Source of the DNA: Marinovum algicola
GTDB taxonomy: Bacteria; Pseudomonadota; Alphaproteobacteria; Rhodobacterales; Rhodobacteraceae
NCBI RefSeq assembly: GCF_900109145.1
Contig: NZ_FNYY01000010.1
Location: forward strand, 124,001 to 188,000
Direction of reading: 5' to 3'
Length of the DNA: 64,000 nucleotides
Part shown: positions 2,934 through 58,881 of the stretch, in pieces
Layout of the letters: each line of letters begins with the position of its first letter
How positions within the stretch are numbered: the stretch's first letter is position 1
Made by a program: the position numbers and the translations under genes
The notes under the pieces: generated by a model
The model's database searches: none
The model's input: only the letters and a program-made list of their open reading frames with translations
Told to the model about the DNA's origin: nothing

Positions 2934-3869
2934 TTAGCCGGCCTTTTTCTTGTCGGCCACGATCTCGTCGAGCCGGCGCTGGAACTTGGGCGCGCTCTGA
3001 CGCGAGACCACGAAGCGGCAGAGCCGTTCGGCCAGCGCGGTGCGCCGGTCGCGATCCAGCGCGCCGAGCAGGTTGCGCAGATAGGGCGGATGGCTGCGCC
3101 GCGCTCGCATCAGCCGGTAGAAGCTTTGCGGGTCGAGCTTGCCGGTGCCGGCCTTGGCGAGAATGCGGAACAGGACCGACATCTCGAGCAGGTCGCTCTG
3201 GATCGTGTCGCCGAGGCCCGGCACCGGCAGCAGCGTGGTCTGCGGCCCGTGAAAGAGCGCGGCATGCATCGCGTCGAGCGGCTCGCGCGGGTCATAGATC
3301 ACATACAGCTGATCGGCGCCCTGCGACATGTCGGGGGCATAGCCGTACCGCGAGGTGAAATCCATCGCGCGCAGATCGGTGAACCGGTCGTCCCAGCCGG
3401 CAAGCCGCGGATTGAGCGTCGCCTGCGGCTGGATCGCCACCACCGTCGCGCCCGGTGCCGCCACTGAAAAGGCCGTTGCCGCATAACCGCAGGGCCCGGC
3501 GCCATAGAAGATCACCCGGTCGAATTCGTCGAAGAAGCCATCGTCGGTCAGCTCGTCGAAGAATTCATAGACCTCGCCGGTGCGGAACCATGTCTCGCCG
3601 TCGCAGACCACGCCGAGATGCGACCAGCCCATCGCGCGCACCAGATCGAAGCCCAGCGGCTGGCCGGTCTCCGACAGGGCCTGGATGCCCTGAAAGCTTT
3701 CGAAGGTCACCAGCAGCGTATCGCCTTCCTCGATGAAGGCGGCGGCGTGTTTCGGGCCGAGCGGGGCATAGAATCCCTCTTCCTCGGCGATGTCCTTGAG
3801 CGCGCCGAACCACTTTGCCTTGGGCAAGGAAGTCATCGGCGCGTCAAATGTGTTCAGCGTGTCCTGCAT
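2934..3869 (-). CDS. Conserved hypothetical protein with Rossmann-like segment
   Basis: Unrecognised function. I chose ATG at 3869, which is preceded by GAGGA at good distance; a GTG at 3890 would add seven residues. The 311-residue product is soluble. A central stretch ([16 protein letters not shown], about residues 120-135, then [12 protein letters not shown]) looks like a nucleotide- or cofactor-binding strand-loop-helix. The C-terminus is basic and ends in lysines. Homologues may carry names such as phosphoadenosine phosphosulfate reductase in some annotations, but none of the CysH motifs are present. It sits 43 bases upstream of pyrC on the same strand, with no clear functional link. Confidence 0.7.
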
Positions 3870-3990: not shown

Positions 3991-5031
3991 TCAGGGGCTT
4001 AGTCGCTGGCTTCGCCGGGCATGGGCAATCAGCTTGCGAGCGGCGTCGCGCGGGAGGGGATGCGACGGCGGGGTCATCATCAGGCGGCCGAAGAGCGCGC
4101 GGTAGTCCTCGGTCTGCATCAGCTCGGCAAATCGTGCATGACGCCAGGCCACCGCCGCGGCATGCAGGCGGGCCAGCTCGGGGTCGGCGGCCAGCCGGGC
4201 GCGCTCCGCGGCCACCTCGGCGCCAAGCCGCAGGATGCTGCGATCTTCCTCGGTGTTGAAATTGCGGTCGGTCCAATAGTCCATGCCGAGCCGGTCGTCG
4301 GAATGCACCGCCCGGCCGCGGGCGGATTTCAGGACGAAGCTTTCCATCGCCCCCAGCGCGTAGTGATTGAGCTGGGCGAGGCGGCAATGGCGTTGCCCCA
4401 GCGGCGAGAACACCCGCCGGTCATGCGCCTGCAAATCGAGCGTGCGGCCCGCGCCATCGCGCCACTGCACCGCGCGGCCGTCGCGCAGCCCGCGCGGGCG
4501 GTGCACCCCCAACTGCCGGAAGCTTCCGTCGTTGCGATAGAGCGTCTTGAACATCTGCGCCCGCCACGGCCAATGCATCACCTCGGGGGCCGCGCGGGTA
4601 AAGACCTCGGGCACCGGGGCGTCGCGCCAGGCGATTTCGCCGGCATTGCCGAACAGCCGCCAGGTCAGGGTGATGGCGCTGGCTCCGGGCAGGGCGGCGA
4701 TCAGATCGGGCAGCTGGTGGCCGCCGGTGTGAATGTTGACAAATTCGTCGATGTCGAGCGCCATCAGCCAGTCGGCCTGGCGCACCGGCTTGACCTTGCC
4801 CGCCAGCTTCAGCCCGGTGAACTGGATACCGGCCTGATGATAGGGCCCGTCGTTGCGGATGTGGGTGACGCCCCCCAGCGCCGCCAGCCGGTCGGCGATC
4901 AGATCGGTGCCGTCGGCGCAATCATTGGTGCAGATCACCACATGGGAAAAGCCCACCGTCCGGTGATGCGCCAGCCAGTCGAGCACAAAGGCGCCTTCGT
5001 CGCGCAGGCACAGGACGGCGGTGGCCTGCAT
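3991..5031 (-). CDS. Glycosyltransferase family 2-like protein (DIDEF type)
   Basis: Probably transfers a sugar onto a surface glycan. The 346-residue protein starts with VLCLRDEGAFVLDWLAHHR and has NDCADGTD near residue 36 and the acidic metal/nucleotide-sugar motif DIDEF near 92. These mark the Glyco_tranf_2_4-like family, common in Rhodobacteraceae surface loci. The C-terminus holds LNHYALGAMESFVLK, a signature shared with the two related proteins encoded upstream at 5760-8087 and 8725-9765. It is the last gene of the operon, 28 bases after the FkbM methyltransferase, with GGAG before its ATG. The acceptor is unknown. Confidence 0.85.
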   Translation of the reverse strand: MQATAVLCLRDEGAFVLDWLAHHRTVGFSHVVICTNDCADGTDLIADRLAALGGVTHIRNDGPYHQAGIQFTGLKLAGKVKPVRQADWLMALDIDEFVNIHTGGHQLPDLIAALPGASAITLTWRLFGNAGEIAWRDAPVPEVFTRAAPEVMHWPWRAQMFKTLYRNDGSFRQLGVHRPRGLRDGRAVQWRDGAGRTLDLQAHDRRVFSPLGQRHCRLAQLNHYALGAMESFVLKSARGRAVHSDDRLGMDYWTDRNFNTEEDRSILRLGAEVAAERARLAADPELARLHAAAVAWRHARFAELMQTEDYRALFGRLMMTPPSHPLPRDAARKLIAHARRSQRLSP

Positions 5032-5059
5032 CAGCGGGCTCCGGCGGGGGACATGCGGC

Positions 5060-5758
5060 TCACCATCCCCGGCGGAAGGTCACGACCTTGCCATGTGAGG
5101 CGCGCGGGAAATAGCTCAGCCCCGCGCCGTGCATGGCGTCAAACACCGCCTGAACACCGGACTGGCCGATCCATTGCGGATGCAGCTCGATCACCGCCGC
5201 ACGCAGCGACGACCAGTCGCCGGCCGGCAAAAGCTCGGCCTCGCCGCCCTCGATGTCGCAGATCAGCACCTCTGGCCGCACCTCCTCGAGCACCGGGCCG
5301 ATGGCCTGGCGCGCGACCTCGACGGTACCGGTGATGGCGCCAGGATCGACGGTGCCATCGAGCGACGAGCTGAGGATATTCTTGCGCAGGTAAAACGGCA
5401 GAGGGGCGCCACCCTCGGGGGTGAGCAGCGCATTGCGCAGCTCGATCCGCTCGGCACCATTGGCGGCGTGCATCCGGCGGATATGCGGGATCAGTGCCGG
5501 GTTGGCCTCGTAGCACACCAGCCGCCGGGCCTGTCGCTGGGTGGCGATCAGCGTCGAGACATAGCCGATGCCGCCGCCCAGTTCGAGCACCCGGTCGCCT
5601 TTCTGCACAACCCGCATCACGGCCTCGCATTCCTTGCGCTCAAAGGTCTCGGCCCGAAGCGCGGCACGGATCCGGCCTGTGGTGATGCCAGGATGGCGCG
5701 GCACCCGCATCCCGCGCGAGCGGATAAAGCCCCGGGCGGGCGGCGTCTCGACGTTCAT
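5060..5758 (-). CDS. FkbM family SAM-dependent methyltransferase
   Basis: Likely O-methylates a sugar of the glycan built by its neighbours. From ATG at 5758 the protein has 232 residues; an earlier ATG at 5788 lies inside the preceding gene. The SAM-binding glycine motif VLELGGGIGY is at about 57-66, an acidic E after VCYEANP is near 88, and ICDIEGGEAELL near 150 is the FkbM hallmark (DIEG). The start is one base after the stop of the upstream fused glycosyltransferase, with GGAG just before it, so translation is probably coupled. Family assignment is firm; the substrate is inferred from context. Confidence 0.88.
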   Translation of the reverse strand: MNVETPPARGFIRSRGMRVPRHPGITTGRIRAALRAETFERKECEAVMRVVQKGDRVLELGGGIGYVSTLIATQRQARRLVCYEANPALIPHIRRMHAANGAERIELRNALLTPEGGAPLPFYLRKNILSSSLDGTVDPGAITGTVEVARQAIGPVLEEVRPEVLICDIEGGEAELLPAGDWSSLRAAVIELHPQWIGQSGVQAVFDAMHGAGLSYFPRASHGKVVTFRRGW

Positions 5759-5759
5759 C

Positions 5760-8087
5760 TCAGGTCTCCATGTCGAGCGCCAGCGCATAGGCCGCGCGTT
5801 CGGTTTCGGTCAGGCGCAGGGCCATGGCCTGGTCGTATAGCTCGGCGAATTCCGGCACCTGCCGCAGCTCGGCGGCCTTGGCCCGGTGCCAGGCCAGCCC
5901 CCTGGCGTGCCACTCGGACAGCACCGGATCGGCCAGCAGCCGGTCGTATTCCGCCCGCACCCGCGGCAGGTTGCGCTTGATGGTGATGTCGCGGTGATCG
6001 TTCCAGTCCATGCGAATCCAGTAGTTCAGACCGATGGTCCGGTCGACATGCAGCGCCCGGCCGCGCTGGCGCTTGATCAGGAAGCTCTCGGCCGAACGCA
6101 GGGCGTAGTGGTTGAGCTGCAAGAGGTCATAGCCGATCGAGCGCTTGGAATTGCGCCAGCCGTTCTTCTTGACCTCGTCGCCCATCGGCAGGCCCGAGCC
6201 GTTGACCCAATGCACCCGCTCGGCCATGTCCGGCACAAGCTTGTTGGGCCGGTGGCAGGAGAGTTTCTCGTAGGCGCCGATATTGCGCACCATGGTCTTG
6301 AACCCCCAAGCGGTGTGCGGCTTGGGGCAGAACTTCGGCGCGCAGCTGTCGAATTGGTCGATGACAAAGTTGTCGTCGAGACTGGTGACACCGTTGTGGC
6401 CGAACAGCCGCCAGGTCATGGCGACATTGGTGGCCTCGGGCACCCGGTCGAGGAAATCCTGAAGCGTGCCATTGCCGCAGCGAATGTTCATGAATTCATC
6501 GACGTCGATATGAATGATCCACTCGGCCTGGCGGATCACCGGCTCTTTCAGCGACTGGTTGAGCGCATATTGCTGCGGCGACTTGCCCGACCAATTCTCG
6601 TTGTCGCGGTGCTCGATCACGCCAAGGGTTTGCAGGCGATCGAGGATCTCGTCGGTGCCGTCGGCGCAGCCGTTGGTGTAGATCAGGAAACTGTCGATGC
6701 CGATGACGCGGTGATAGGCGATCCATTCCAGGATGTAGGGCGCTTCGTTCTTCATGCAGCCGACAATGACATTGCCGCTCGAGCCCGGCGGCAGGCGGCG
6801 CGCCGGAGCCAGGGCAAAGGCCTGGGCCAGCTCTTCCTCGTTGACCCGCCCGAGCCGGTTGTGCGGCGCGAATGGCCCGCCCCGCAGTTGCGCGAATTTC
6901 TCTTTCGCCAGCTGCGGCATCAGCGCGGCAGCCTGGCGCGACAGCCCCGCGACATCGGCCCCGTTCGCGGCGCGGTCGGCGGCGCGCGCCTCGCGGGTGG
7001 ATTTTTCGATCCGGGGGAGGGCCGCCAGCAGGTGTTGCGAGGCGCGGTAGCCCTCCGTCGTCTCGGCCTCCTGCCAGCGCGCGAGCGGTCGGTCGGCGGC
7101 AAAGGCGGCGGCCAGGGCCGGCGTCTCCTGCGCAAGCGCCGCCAGGTCGCCGGCAAACCGCGCGGCAATCGACGCCAGCGTTCCGGCCTGCATCGCCGAG
7201 CCGGGCCACCGCAGATCGCCCAGCATCCGTTTCCAGATCTGCCGCGATACCCGGTGATCGCCCTGTGCCAGAAGCCGGGTGAGGACATCGTTGAACTGCC
7301 GCGCGCGCGCCATCCATTCCGCCGACGGCATGGCGGGCGCGGTGATCGCCTCATGCTTGCCGATCTGCGCGTCGAGGCCAAGGCAGGTGCGCAGCTCTTC
7401 GGTCACATCCTCGCGGCAGAGTGCCGCCACCTCCAGCGGCCGAAACCGCACCGATCCGGCGCCAAAGACTGCCTCCCAATGGCGCCGCAGGGCGGGGTAG
7501 TCGAGCCAGGCCGGCGCCATCTGCACCTCGGGGAATATCCCCTGGTCGGGGCGCGCCCGGGGCCGGTCGGCCAGCGCCGCCGCCCACCAGTCGGGGCAAT
7601 CGGCCAGCCGCAGTTCGAGCTCGAGCGGCCGCATCCGCCCATCCAGAACCTGCACGATATACTGCCGCAACAGCATCCGCGCCGGGCAGTCCAGATGGGC
7701 AATCACCTCGACCCGATCGGAAATCGGCGCCAGCACGGCCTTCAGCCGCTCCAGCTCGGAGCCGGTCAGCAGGCTGCTGCCGAACTGATGCGCCGAGAGG
7801 ATCAGATGCCCGGCGCCGCTGGCCTCGACCTCGCGTGCCAGCGCCTCGGTCACATCGGCACGCAGCTGCGCCTGCCGCTCGGGCGCGGCAAAGCCCCGGT
7901 TGTGGCGCAGGGTGTCCACCGCGCCGGGATCGCTCACCGCCATGAACAGCCGCGTGTGGTTGCGCGCGCCCGGCGTGCGGGCAAACAGCACGCCATTGCG
8001 CAAGAGCTGCCGCCGCTTGGCGTCCAGCACCTGCTGAAGCCGTGTCGTGGCCCAGAGGTCGGGCCCGATATGCAGGCTGATTTTCAT
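5760..8087 (-). CDS. Fusion: degenerate sulfotransferase-like N-terminus + DIDEF-type glycosyltransferase
   Basis: A 775-residue two-part enzyme. The C-terminal part (about 435-740) is a glycosyltransferase of the same family as its neighbours: NVIVGCMKNEAPYILEW, NGCADGTDEI, HIDVDEFMNIR and LNHYALRSAESFLIK. The N-terminus (LHIGPDLWATTRLQ at 3-16, then LRNGVLFARTPG) follows the pattern of Rhodobacteraceae sulfotransferase-like proteins (LHIG.HKTGTT..LQ), but the PAPS-binding lysine and glycine are replaced, so it is probably not an active sulfotransferase. A helical linker lies between. Start and stop overlap or abut both neighbours (ATGA with 8084-8728), showing tight coupling. No signal peptide or membrane segment is visible. 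Confidence 0.85.
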   Translation of the reverse strand: MKISLHIGPDLWATTRLQQVLDAKRRQLLRNGVLFARTPGARNHTRLFMAVSDPGAVDTLRHNRGFAAPERQAQLRADVTEALAREVEASGAGHLILSAHQFGSSLLTGSELERLKAVLAPISDRVEVIAHLDCPARMLLRQYIVQVLDGRMRPLELELRLADCPDWWAAALADRPRARPDQGIFPEVQMAPAWLDYPALRRHWEAVFGAGSVRFRPLEVAALCREDVTEELRTCLGLDAQIGKHEAITAPAMPSAEWMARARQFNDVLTRLLAQGDHRVSRQIWKRMLGDLRWPGSAMQAGTLASIAARFAGDLAALAQETPALAAAFAADRPLARWQEAETTEGYRASQHLLAALPRIEKSTREARAADRAANGADVAGLSRQAAALMPQLAKEKFAQLRGGPFAPHNRLGRVNEEELAQAFALAPARRLPPGSSGNVIVGCMKNEAPYILEWIAYHRVIGIDSFLIYTNGCADGTDEILDRLQTLGVIEHRDNENWSGKSPQQYALNQSLKEPVIRQAEWIIHIDVDEFMNIRCGNGTLQDFLDRVPEATNVAMTWRLFGHNGVTSLDDNFVIDQFDSCAPKFCPKPHTAWGFKTMVRNIGAYEKLSCHRPNKLVPDMAERVHWVNGSGLPMGDEVKKNGWRNSKRSIGYDLLQLNHYALRSAESFLIKRQRGRALHVDRTIGLNYWIRMDWNDHRDITIKRNLPRVRAEYDRLLADPVLSEWHARGLAWHRAKAAELRQVPEFAELYDQAMALRLTETERAAYALALDMET

Positions 8088-8728
8088 GCGCTGTCATCCT
8101 CTTGCGCGGCGCGCACCGGGTTCACGTTGGTTTTGCCCCACCATGGCAGGTCGCGGCCCAGGAACGCGCCGATCCGCGCCGGCGCCGCCCCATCGGCCAC
8201 GTCGATCCGCAGGAACTCGTCACAGCCGGCGAAATACCGGTCGAGCGCGGCGTAATGCCCGGCGATCCAGGTCTCGCGTTCGCGGGTCGTCACGCCATAG
8301 CCGGCGGGCAGGCCAGGAATATCCGCGGCCGGGAGCCGCTCTGTCCCGAGGTTCGACCAGCGCAGCATGGAATCCGCGATCTCCTCGGGCCGCCGCCAGG
8401 TCGCCAGAAACCGCGTGCCCGGGTGACAGGCGCGAATGGCGGCCAGCAACCCGAAATCGAACTGCGGCCAGATCGAGCGCGGCGGGCGCAGGGCGTTGAT
8501 CTCGGCAAAGCCGTCAAAGACGTCGAGCCCGTGCAGCGGATCGCCACGCAGGAAATAGCCGTCATACATCATCTCGCCGACGAACCGTCCGTGCAGCGCG
8601 GCGTCGTCGGTCTGCACCGGCTTGATCCGGTGATCGGCCACATGCAGACCGGCCTTGCGCAGCGCGCGGGCCAGCGTGGTGGTGCCCGATTTCGGCAGCC
8701 CGAGGTTGATGACCCGCAACCGGCTCAT
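8084..8728 (-). CDS. Sulfotransferase family protein
   Basis: Probably transfers sulfate from PAPS to a sugar. From ATG at 8728 (ATGA overlap with the upstream gene's stop) the protein has 214 residues. INLGLPKSGTTTLARAL at 7-23 is the classic 5'-phosphosulfate-binding loop with Lys13. TRFLATWRRPEEIADSML around residue 111 matches the 3'-phosphate-binding region (R.P...). A longer open frame from 8881 exists but would overlap the upstream gene by 157 bases. It overlaps the fused glycosyltransferase by ATGA. Sulfation of the glycan made by this operon is the obvious inference. Confidence 0.88.
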   Translation of the reverse strand: MSRLRVINLGLPKSGTTTLARALRKAGLHVADHRIKPVQTDDAALHGRFVGEMMYDGYFLRGDPLHGLDVFDGFAEINALRPPRSIWPQFDFGLLAAIRACHPGTRFLATWRRPEEIADSMLRWSNLGTERLPAADIPGLPAGYGVTTRERETWIAGHYAALDRYFAGCDEFLRIDVADGAAPARIGAFLGRDLPWWGKTNVNPVRAAQEDDSA

Positions 8729-9765
8729 GGCAGGGCCAGAACCGGCGCGGCGCCGATCCGCGCCAAGAGCTCGTCTTCGCCCGGCGGCAGGGTCGACGCC
8801 GTGCGCAGCTGCGCCTGCATCGCCTGATAGCGCGCCTGCTGCACCAGCGCATCGCGCCGCGCCCGGTGCAGGCGCACGCATTCCGCATGCAGTTCCGCCA
8901 CGCCGGGCAGCGCCTTCAGGGCCGCGATCTGCGCCTCGAGCTTCGGCAGCATCCGCAGGATCGAGCGTTCTTCGCAGGCGCCATCGTTGCGCTCGCGCCA
9001 GTAGCTGTCGTCGAATTCCCGGTTCTCGCGGTTGACGTCGCCGCGGTCGTTCTTGACCAGGTAACTGTCGAGCGAGCGCAGCGCGTAATGGTTCAGCGTG
9101 GCGAAACTGCGCGCGCCCTTGGCCGGGAACTTGCGGATCCGTCGCTTGTTGGCGGCCCGCAAAAAGGCCTCGGGCACATCGCGCCCTGCACCGTCCTTCC
9201 AGACCGGCGCCGCCGCTTTGTTTGGCTTGTGAAACGGCCGATGCGCGCCGTAATATTGCAGCGGAAAATCACCCCGCACCAGTGTCTTGACCTCGATCGC
9301 GCTCTCGCCGCACCAGAGGTCGGGGGCGTGGCAGCGGGTGAACTGGCCGATCACCGGTCGGTCTTCGAAACGCGTGACCCCGGCATTGGCAAAGAACCGG
9401 AAACTCACCGAGATGGCCTGCGGATCGCCACAGGCCGCGATCAGCGCCGGGATGCTGTGATCGCCGACGTGGATGTTGAGGAACTCGTCGACATCCGCCA
9501 CCCAGAGCCAATCGGCGGCGTGCACCATCTCCTGCCCGCGGGCGTGTTTGAGCGCCTCCATCTGGTAATTGCGGCCTTCGGCCGGATTGGCCAGATGGGC
9601 CACCACGCCATGCGCCGCCAACCGATCCAGCAACCTGTCGGTGCCATCGGAGCAATCGTTGGAATAGAACAGGTGATCGCGCACGCCGATCACCCGGTTG
9701 TAGGCAATCCATTCCAGCAGGAACGGGCCTTCGTTCTTGACACATGTCACGGCGGCTATGCGCAT
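8725..9765 (-). CDS. Glycosyltransferase family 2-like protein (DVDEF type), first gene of operon
   Basis: A 346-residue relative of the products of 3991-5031 and 5760-8087: VTCVKNEGPFLLEWIAYNR, NDCSDGTDRLLDRL, VADVDEFLNIH near residue 92, and LNHYALRSLDSYLVK. It is the promoter-proximal gene of the five-gene glycan operon. Upstream lies a 230-base divergent region with an 18-bp inverted repeat. Each of these three proteins has the same order (KNE, then NDC/NGC-DGTD, then D.DEF, then LNHYAL), so they are paralogues that probably add different sugars. No membrane anchor is visible. Confidence 0.87.
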   Translation of the reverse strand: MRIAAVTCVKNEGPFLLEWIAYNRVIGVRDHLFYSNDCSDGTDRLLDRLAAHGVVAHLANPAEGRNYQMEALKHARGQEMVHAADWLWVADVDEFLNIHVGDHSIPALIAACGDPQAISVSFRFFANAGVTRFEDRPVIGQFTRCHAPDLWCGESAIEVKTLVRGDFPLQYYGAHRPFHKPNKAAAPVWKDGAGRDVPEAFLRAANKRRIRKFPAKGARSFATLNHYALRSLDSYLVKNDRGDVNRENREFDDSYWRERNDGACEERSILRMLPKLEAQIAALKALPGVAELHAECVRLHRARRDALVQQARYQAMQAQLRTASTLPPGEDELLARIGAAPVLALP

Positions 9766-9833: not shown

Positions 9834-9995
9834 ACTGCCGCCTCTTGGTTATCTTTTTGCAAAAACTCGCATGTTGCCGGCCCTGCGTCAATTGCGCTGC
9901 CGCCGGGACGGGCGAACCGGAGGCAACGCGACTTTTGTCGTCTTGACCCCAAAGACGGCGCGTGTAGCCCTTGCTGCACAAGGGAGAGGGCTTGA

Positions 9996-54384: not shown

Positions 54385-55098
54385 TCAGCGCGCGGCGTCG
54401 GGCAGGAAAAACGCATTGCGCTCCATCTGCCCGACCATGCGATAGCCGAGGCCGGGAAAGGCCTCGGTCAGACGGGCCTCGAAGCTGCGTTGCGCCCAGG
54501 CCTTTTCGGCCTCGAGCACGAGCAGCGGCCGGCAGGTCTCGATCACCCGCCGGGCGCCCAGAAGAGCCGGCCATTCGTGACCTTCGAGATCGAGATGCAG
54601 CACCGAGACGCGGCGCGAGGCATCGACCAGATCATCGATCGGCACCACCGGCACGGCAACCGTCTTGCCGGCGATCTCATCCTCCACCACTCGGGCGCGC
54701 GCGGCCATCGGCTGGCCGCTGTCCGAGACGGTCTGAAGATGCAGCGTGCCCGGCGTCTCGCCCACGGCGAGCGGATGCAGCGCGGCGTTGTCGATCCGGT
54801 TGAGCCGCAGGGTGATGCGAGCGGCGGCATGGCTGAGCGGCGCGGGCTCGAAGGAATGCACCGTCGCGCCCGGCACCATCACCTGTGACAGTGCGGGCAG
54901 GAAGTCGCCGACAAAGGCGCCGCCGGTGACGACATCGCCATCGCGCACCCAGCGCCGCATCAGTTTCAGCGTTTCGGGTTCATAGACGCCGCCAGCCAGC
55001 AGCACCCGCGGCACCTCGCGGCGGGCATAGGCATCGGGCAGGCAATAGAACCCGTATTCATTGACGGCGGTGGTATAGCCGAAGTCCGGATCGGCCAT
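54385..55098 (-). CDS. FkbM family methyltransferase
   Basis: A 237-residue SAM-dependent methyltransferase from ATG 55098 (alternatives at 55140 and 55176). Visible are VRDGDVVTGGAFVGDFLPALS near 51 (SAM loop, though GGAFVGD is less standard than the usual GAxxG), HSFEPAPLSHAAAR with the acidic Glu, and LHLDLEGHEWPAL near 171 (FkbM DxEG). The best-known relatives methylate sugars or polyketides. It is isolated from the glycan operon at 3991-9765 but is of the same family as the enzyme there. Confidence 0.85.
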   Translation of the reverse strand: MADPDFGYTTAVNEYGFYCLPDAYARREVPRVLLAGGVYEPETLKLMRRWVRDGDVVTGGAFVGDFLPALSQVMVPGATVHSFEPAPLSHAAARITLRLNRIDNAALHPLAVGETPGTLHLQTVSDSGQPMAARARVVEDEIAGKTVAVPVVPIDDLVDASRRVSVLHLDLEGHEWPALLGARRVIETCRPLLVLEAEKAWAQRSFEARLTEAFPGLGYRMVGQMERNAFFLPDAAR

Positions 55099-55261
55099 GG
55101 CGGTCTCGGATCCCTTGGCGGCAATTGTCCTGTGCTGCATCCTGCTTGGCCTCGCTCGGATTTTTGCCGCCAGCATAAGGCCATTGCGGCCCAGTCCAAG
55201 ACAAATCGCGCCCCGGGGTAAATCGGGGCGCGATCTGTGGCATGCGGTGGTCAGTCGCGGC

Positions 55262-57879: not shown

Positions 57880-58881
57880 TCATCGCATCCAGAAACCTTC
57901 GCGCCTGATCTTGTTGCGGATCGCCTGTTCCTTGCGCGGCAGGTTATCGCGGTCGAACAGGTCGCGTACCTTGTGGCCGCGCCCCTGATAGATCATCCGC
58001 AGGGCGGGTTCGTATTCCTTGAGCCGTTTCTTCACCTTGTTCGGCGCGGCGACGATCTCGAGCGTGTCGACCACATGCTTGCCCTCGCGCGCAAAGAGCA
58101 GCGGCAGGAACCGGTAGTGACAGGAATGCGTGCCATCGAGCATGCCGGGGGGCAGGGTATCACGTCCGCCGCCGAGAGAATGGATCACCAACGGCAGCGC
58201 CACCTGGTCGAGCCAGGGGGTCATCGGCTGACAGACCAGCGCCGGCGGGGGATCGTCGCGGATCGCCAGGGCATAATCGAGGAACCGCGCGCCGAATTCA
58301 CGGGGGCAGCGGTAGAAGAAGAAGCCGGCGTTGAAATAGAGGTAACGCTGCCAGTATTCCTCGGGCTGCGTCGGATCGAGCGAGCTTTCGAAATCGAGGC
58401 CGAACTTGTCGTAGAGCGATTTCCAGATCTCGGTATACCCCGGCCCGTATAGCTCGATCCTGGGCCATGTGCCCTCGCGCCGCAGCGAGGCGGTGGGCCG
58501 GTCGAAATCGAAACGCACTTCGGACAAAGCGCCGGTGATCAGCGTGTCGGTGTCGAAGAACACGAAAGGCTCGCCCTCGGGCAGAGCCGCCAGCGCCTCG
58601 ATCTTGTTGCCATGTGGGTAGCTGTGGCCGAAATGGCGGTTCTCGAACGGCAGGAACTCGGCGCCCAGCTCGAGCAGGAAATTGCGCAGGTCGTCGTTCT
58701 TGATGCGGGGATCATGCGGCCAGAGCGGGCCGGGCTGCGGTTCGGCGATGAACAGCCGGCCGCGAAAGCCGCGGTTGGAATAGCGGAACGAGGCGGCGAA
58801 AAGCAGGGCCTCGTATTGCAGCCGTCCGGCCTGGGCCACGATCACGATATTGAACGGCCTGTCGCCTGTTGCCTGTCGCAC
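57880..58881 (-). CDS. Putative glycosyltransferase with DTDT motif
   Basis: A 333-residue protein with a GT-A-like layout: NIVIVAQAGRLQYEALLFAAS at the N-terminus, EPFVFFDTDTLITGAL near 104-119 (DxD type metal site), and YFNAGFFFYRC near 187. The C-terminus is basic (KNKIRREGFW). It likely uses a nucleotide sugar, but donor and acceptor are unknown. It stands alone between the methyltransferase and PhnM-like genes. It does not share the DIDEF pattern of the operon at 3991-9765. Confidence 0.72.
   Translation of the reverse strand: MRQATGDRPFNIVIVAQAGRLQYEALLFAASFRYSNRGFRGRLFIAEPQPGPLWPHDPRIKNDDLRNFLLELGAEFLPFENRHFGHSYPHGNKIEALAALPEGEPFVFFDTDTLITGALSEVRFDFDRPTASLRREGTWPRIELYGPGYTEIWKSLYDKFGLDFESSLDPTQPEEYWQRYLYFNAGFFFYRCPREFGARFLDYALAIRDDPPPALVCQPMTPWLDQVALPLVIHSLGGGRDTLPPGMLDGTHSCHYRFLPLLFAREGKHVVDTLEIVAAPNKVKKRLKEYEPALRMIYQGRGHKVRDLFDRDNLPRKEQAIRNKIRREGFWMR

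Follow-up and report, generated by a model that had tools for sequence, protein, structure and literature searches.

What is assembled by the five-gene operon found at positions 3991-9765 of a 64,000-nucleotide stretch of the Marinovum algicola genome (contig NZ_FNYY01000010.1, positions 124,001 to 188,000; this whole stretch is referred to below as the window), and what does each of its proteins contribute? The first-pass annotation of the window had proposed a sulfated and methylated glycan as the product. Our analysis revealed a feature that is new relative to that annotation: the third protein, P3, is a fusion of a pseudo-sulfotransferase with a glycosyltransferase. Judging from the alignments, its N-terminal domain appears unable to bind 3'-phosphoadenosine 5'-phosphosulfate (PAPS) in all the orthologues examined, and its former PAPS site has acquired a new, conserved make-up. 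Three glycosyltransferases probably make the constant product of the operon, a glycan that is usually sulfated but only sometimes methylated.

Organization of the operon

The operon is a unit of the minus strand, read from position 9765 to 3991, whose genes, in transcription order, are GT1, ST, P3 (775 amino acids), FkbM and GT5. Their presence was recorded in 102 distinct loci with enough flanking sequence, selected by P3 alone and freed of P3-sequence duplicates (the choice by P3 similarity favours nearer relatives). The assigned features are as follows:

8725-9765, minus strand: GT1, the first gene, a PF13704/GT92-like glycosyltransferase of 346 amino acids (PF13704 E 1.9e-19; PF01697 27.2 bits; 102/102 loci)
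8084-8728, minus strand: ST, a predicted PAPS sulfotransferase of 214 amino acids, 5'-loop GLPKSGTT, 3'-loop R112...S120 (predicted fold, intact P-loop; 95/102 loci)
5760-8087, minus strand: the whole P3 gene, 775 amino acids (open reading frame, ORF)
7095-8087, minus strand: P3 residues 1-331, probable pseudo-sulfotransferase domain with the PAPS-binding Lys, Arg and Ser replaced (structure model, fold matches, alignment)
6768-7094, minus strand: P3 residues 332-440, helical region with a low-confidence linker at its end (predicted local distance difference test, pLDDT, 51-80 over the final 70 modelled residues)
5760-6767, minus strand: P3 residues 441-775, PF13704/GT92-like glycosyltransferase domain (PF13704 E 8e-23; PF01697 41.5 bits)
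5060-5758, minus strand: FkbM-family methyltransferase, 232 amino acids, an optional gene (TIGR01444 above cut-off; 63/102 loci)
3991-5031, minus strand: GT5, the last gene, a PF13704 glycosyltransferase of 346 amino acids (PF13704 E 1e-19; 99/102 loci)

The GT1/ST and ST/P3 borders are ATGA overlaps, while gaps of 1 base and 28 bases separate P3 from FkbM and FkbM from GT5, respectively. The ORF coordinates (3991-9765) thus confirmed the five coupled genes, joined by overlaps or gaps of 1-28 bases, described by the first-pass annotation. No hydrophobic segment was found (best 19-residue mean 1.27), which suggests that the operon proteins are located in the cytoplasm. A scan for terminators within the operon was uninformative (4 found versus 3.5 expected).

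The N-terminal domain of P3 is probably a repurposed sulfotransferase

In a Pfam search with 50 P3 orthologues no family consistently matched the first ~430 residues, and comparison of the N-terminal domain with the PDB by sequence gave no credible match. Its structure model (pLDDT 92.5) was more informative: residues 1-331 matched the folds of 3rnl (Z 14.6), NDST1 (Z 14.2) and 3-OST (Z 13.6), and only sulfotransferases occupied the first 21 places of the fold search; GTPases and adenylate kinases scored less than Z 7.7.

Analysis of the residues expected to bind PAPS revealed that the P-loop Lys is absent from all P3 orthologues (0/130), as is the full motif (0/129), that the position of the 3'-phosphate Arg is occupied by Asp or Glu in 118/132, and that of the 3'-phosphate Ser by Arg in 104/132. 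New residues are kept at the former PAPS site, namely R16 (122/130), H131 (110/132), D133 (106/132), R137 (110/132) and R141 (104/132). A profile search with this domain reached other, distantly related Rhodobacteraceae proteins (E values down to 6e-31), which carry the motif HIGxxKTGTTxxQ or near variants of it; at the aligned positions these have Lys in 19/19, Arg in 15/15 and Ser in 11/13 cases, the paralogues that serve as a reference for the intact site being few (12-19 per position). In a class-wide sample of 240 genomes the same profile gave two partial matches outside Rhodobacteraceae, both with an intact P-loop. Since the P-loop is retained in distant relatives, both in the family and beyond it, the PAPS-dead state of the P3 domain is a derived one.

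Given the loss of the PAPS residues, we rejected the view that the domain is an ordinary second sulfotransferase. Mere decay was also considered; because the replacement residues are themselves conserved, repurposing fits better. We conclude that the N-terminal part of P3 is probably a conserved, repurposed pseudo-sulfotransferase.

Two variants of this arrangement were noted. At one locus (L079, 8314-9765, genome G009) P3 is divided between two ORFs (485- and 467-amino-acid frames) with the split near residue 330, which marks the boundary of the sulfotransferase fold; this could reflect a frameshift or two separate proteins. Another locus (L088, 6571-8421, genome G055, also of Rhodobacteraceae) encodes a 616-amino-acid fusion, in which a PF17784 sulfotransferase with an intact-looking P-loop (GFNKCGT) is joined directly to a PF13704 glycosyltransferase, an independent link between the two activities.

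Three paralogous glycosyltransferase domains

The PF13704 scores of GT1, P3 and GT5 (70.4, 81.2 and 71.3 bits, respectively) are well above the curated cut-off of 27.5. With PF01697 (GT92; cut-off 23 bits), GT1 and P3 score above the threshold and GT5 (12.1 bits) below it. The three domains are mutually 35-40% identical across ~310 residues, with pairwise alignment scores of 434-546 versus ~36 +/- 6 for shuffled sequences. The DxDEF motif is kept in 101/102 GT1, 100/102 P3 and 92/99 GT5 orthologues, and in P3 both DVDE (residues 528-531) and NHY (659-661) are invariant in 21 diverse orthologues. No other part of the operon is as strongly conserved as the glycosyltransferase domain of P3 (residues 441-775): its identity among orthologues is mostly 70-80%, compared with mostly 40-50% for the N-terminal domain.

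The three paralogous domains recognized by the first-pass annotation therefore stand, as shown by the PF13704 matches and the mutual identity, and all three proteins belong to the PF13704 glycosyltransferase family; the middle one, however, is not a plain glycosyltransferase, since its additional N-terminal domain of ~430 residues had been overlooked. The constant core of the operon consists of three paralogous glycosyltransferases of GT-A type, whose motifs are intact.

Other relatives of these domains were also encountered. Genomes without the full operon contain ORFs of 750-800 amino acids (L083, L085, L086, L087, L090), in which a related glycosyltransferase domain is preceded by another N-terminal domain of ~390 residues; this has no Pfam match and, by eye, resembles a degenerate glycosyltransferase. 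An adjacent pair of GT92-like proteins (L200, 2017-4778, contig 41 of the window genome) lies ~27 kb before the window and is flanked by a DEAD-box helicase gene and a prfC-like gene. The window itself encodes a 333-amino-acid glycosyltransferase-like protein (57880-58881, minus strand), recognized by eye from its translation.

The intact sulfotransferase

The sequence of ST matched solved structures weakly (best E 0.07), and PF17784 matched it briefly, at the P-loop. Its fold, predicted with AlphaFold from 47 orthologues (pLDDT 91.6), was most similar to SgdX2 (8y9p; Z 15.0) and Cpz8 (9kf1; Z 14.4); the top 28 entries of the fold search were all sulfotransferases, and unrelated P-loop kinases scored lower (Z ~10). 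The PAPS contacts expected for the sulfotransferase family, which we take to be K13, R112 and S120, do not vary across the 47 aligned rows, while the P-loop LGLPK[ST]GTT and the 3'-loop pattern R.{7}S were each found in 94/95 orthologues. The window genome has one ORF for adenosine 5'-phosphosulfate kinase, so that PAPS can be made there. By its predicted fold and intact PAPS loops ST is a PAPS sulfotransferase, in agreement with the earlier assignment, which had noted the intact GLPKSGTT loop.

A recent duplication as the common origin of ST and the N-terminal domain of P3 was rejected: their pairwise score (31) does not exceed that of shuffles (35.9 +/- 5.6), and they have only the fold in common.

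Distribution and conservation in Rhodobacteraceae

The search for P3 covered 248 Rhodobacteraceae genomes, almost every one representing a different genus. By hand count among the matches listed, both halves of the protein are present in at least 60 of them (approximately a quarter), in 52 cases as a single alignment and in the rest as two adjoining ones. The carriers include Salipiger, Tateyamaria, Primorskyibacter, Mameliella, Sagittula, Thalassovita, Pelagimonas, Pseudooceanicola, Ruegeria marina and Sulfitobacter. No full-length match to the N-terminal domain was found outside the family in the class-wide sample of 240 genomes, and a search of plasmids yielded paralogues of the glycosyltransferase domain and no full-length P3. 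Within the genomes sampled, the predicted glycan-assembly operon is specific to Rhodobacteraceae.

Across the 102 loci the adjoining genes occur in the same order (GT1 in 102, ST in 95, FkbM in 63 and GT5 in 99), with median gaps of -4 (GT1-ST), -1 (ST-P3), 4 (P3-FkbM) and 4 (FkbM-GT5). The recurrence of this order, and of the 4-base median GT1-ST overlap, in approximately 100 distinct loci indicates that the arrangement is not due to chance. The first-pass annotation had suggested looking for the same gene order in other members of the family, and GT1-ST-P3-(FkbM)-GT5 is indeed conserved together. We found no paper describing this operon or the P3 fusion in the open-access literature searched, which omits most subscription journals.

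The patchy presence of FkbM

The methyltransferase assignment of the first-pass annotation was borne out by TIGR01444 (40.8 bits, cut-off 37.7); PF05050 remained slightly below its cut-off (21.6 versus 22.7). On a quick tree of the P3 glycosyltransferase domains, on which all gain and loss counts are minima, the state of FkbM changes at least 25 times and that of ST 6 times. The nearest relatives of the window on this tree (L103, L104, L043) lack FkbM, which suggests that the gene either was recently gained in the window lineage or has been lost by its sister lineages. Where FkbM is missing, the median P3-GT5 gap is 19 bases, so most of these loci have no replacement gene.

The counts over the 102 loci given above suggest a core of three glycosyltransferases, with sulfation nearly constant and methylation optional. 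Thus, of the sulfated and methylated glycan proposed initially, the sulfation part is supported, the sulfotransferase being nearly always present (absent in 7 loci), but methylation does not belong to the core. A second FkbM-like protein is encoded in the window (54385-55176, minus strand; recognized by eye from the translation).

Flanking genes and putative promoter

The wider neighbourhood is also conserved, with divergent MoxR and VWA genes upstream of the operon and D310 and pyrC downstream. Two further features were assigned:

9886-9891, minus strand: predicted promoter -35 element TTGACG, 126 bases upstream of GT1 (same hexamer across loci)
2934-3866, minus strand: D310, a conserved downstream neighbour of 310 amino acids (91/102 loci)

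TTGACG occurs within 220 bases upstream of GT1 in 76/95 loci (median position -124) and is a likely promoter element for the operon; no CtrA sites were found upstream. D310 has no Pfam or PDB match. To judge from the GT5-D310 gap (median 121 bases, never below 80), D310 probably forms a separate transcription unit. It has paralogues (35-49%) that likewise adjoin related glycosyltransferases of the PF13704 family in genomes lacking the complete operon (L083, L084, L086, L087, L089, L090).

Proposed function and rival explanations

In our judgement there is an even chance that the operon extends, in the cytoplasm, a lipid-linked or lipopolysaccharide (LPS)-core acceptor by up to three sugars, which bear sulfate and, optionally, a methyl group. 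GT1, the glycosyltransferase domain of P3 and GT5 would act stepwise on a pre-existing lipid-linked acceptor, ST would place sulfate on these sugars and FkbM, where present, a methyl group. We infer both the identity of the acceptor and the role of the dead P3 domain. In the simplest case the acceptor would be LPS core or oligosaccharide, which is favoured because the unit contains no recognized polymerase or exporter and this route would need no polymerase or flippase of its own. The N-terminal domain of P3 would no longer transfer sulfate; most likely it would bind the acceptor, the growing (sulfated) glycan or ST, and position it for the fused glycosyltransferase. It is possible, though doubtful, that this domain has been neofunctionalised such that its rebuilt PAPS pocket (loss of the Lys, Asp in place of Arg, Arg in place of Ser) either reads the sulfation state of the growing glycan or binds ST, and thereby gates the glycosyltransferase fused to it, coupling sulfation to chain extension.

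Several observations weigh against this proposal. The top fold matches of ST (SgdX2, Cpz8 and schistosome sulfotransferases) are not polysaccharide sulfotransferases, and the sulfate acceptor might therefore not be the glycan itself; 7/102 loci keep P3 without ST; and the open-access literature yielded neither an experiment nor a characterised close relative for any of the five proteins. Moreover, because the MoxR/VWA/pyrC neighbourhood is conserved too, synteny is weaker proof of coupling than the gene overlaps.

The main rival, which we consider unlikely, is that the operon assembles or modifies a polysaccharide destined for export (capsule or exopolysaccharide, EPS), the glycosyltransferases making the repeat unit, ST and FkbM modifying it and the export genes being unlinked. 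Salipiger mucosus is reported to have a sulfated EPS (0.9% w/w sulfate; PMC2953402), and the operon was seen in other Salipiger species. No polymerase, flippase or exporter, however, was recognized by eye beside the operon, where the conserved neighbours are MoxR, VWA, D310 and pyrC (no exporter profile search was run, and such genes may lie elsewhere in the genome). Modification of a protein, e.g. an adhesin or flagellin, instead of a lipid-linked glycan would need no export genes, as cytoplasmic protein glycosylation requires none, and tyrosylprotein sulfotransferases are among the lower-ranked fold matches of ST (Z ~11); with small-molecule enzymes as its best matches and no conserved adhesin or flagellar gene seen adjoining the operon, we hold such a target to be very improbable. 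Those best matches, SgdX2 and Cpz8 (the latter from the caprazamycin pathway), would suit a small sulfated glycoside or glycolipid, resembling a secondary metabolite rather than a surface glycan. To this reading we likewise attach little probability: the conserved unit has no polyketide, peptide or scaffold gene, and occurrence in about a quarter of the genera suggests a general envelope component.

It is also highly unlikely that the N-terminal domain of P3 has remained active as an enzyme with changed chemistry that binds a nucleotide or a sulfated ligand in some novel manner. The conservation of the replaced positions (R16, D133 and R141) would not be given by drift alone; nevertheless, the P-loop Lys is lost in 130/130 orthologues together with the 3'-phosphate Arg, and the domain evolves faster than the glycosyltransferase domain, as their identities indicate.

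As a pseudo-sulfotransferase joined to a glycosyltransferase, this domain is a clear instance of a dead sulfotransferase that has been conserved. Enzymes of this class that are dead seem to have been hardly described: in the open-access literature we found as relevant only the sulfotransferase-like domain of an animal epimerase. For an abundant family of marine bacteria, the operon provides a defined set of genes, ready for knock-out, that probably underlies a sulfated glycan of the envelope. Should the dead domain indeed read sulfation, it would reveal how the addition of sugars and of sulfate is ordered in bacteria.

Comparison with known systems

All three glycosyltransferase domains of the operon resemble PF13704/GT92-like enzymes (PF13704 in each, PF01697 also in GT1 and P3), from which P3 differs by its additional 430-residue N-terminal domain. 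ST is similar to SgdX2 and Cpz8 in fold and in its PAPS loops, but is only 15-17% identical to them and located in a glycosyltransferase operon. The sulfated EPS of S. mucosus comes from the same bacterial family; there a sulfated glycan has been measured. The N-terminal domain of P3 shares the fold of the heparan sulfate sulfotransferases NDST1 and 3-OST and of 3rnl (Z 12.6-14.6 over ~223-237 residues); in contrast to these, its P-loop Lys, 3'-phosphate Arg and Ser are all replaced, and it is fused to a glycosyltransferase. The animal protein mentioned above, DS-epi2 (DSEL), is a dermatan sulfate epimerase with a sulfotransferase-like domain (PMC4920151). It is a eukaryotic epimerase and not a glycosyltransferase, and its likeness to P3 is one of architecture rather than of demonstrated homology: in both, a glycan enzyme bears an additional sulfotransferase-like domain.

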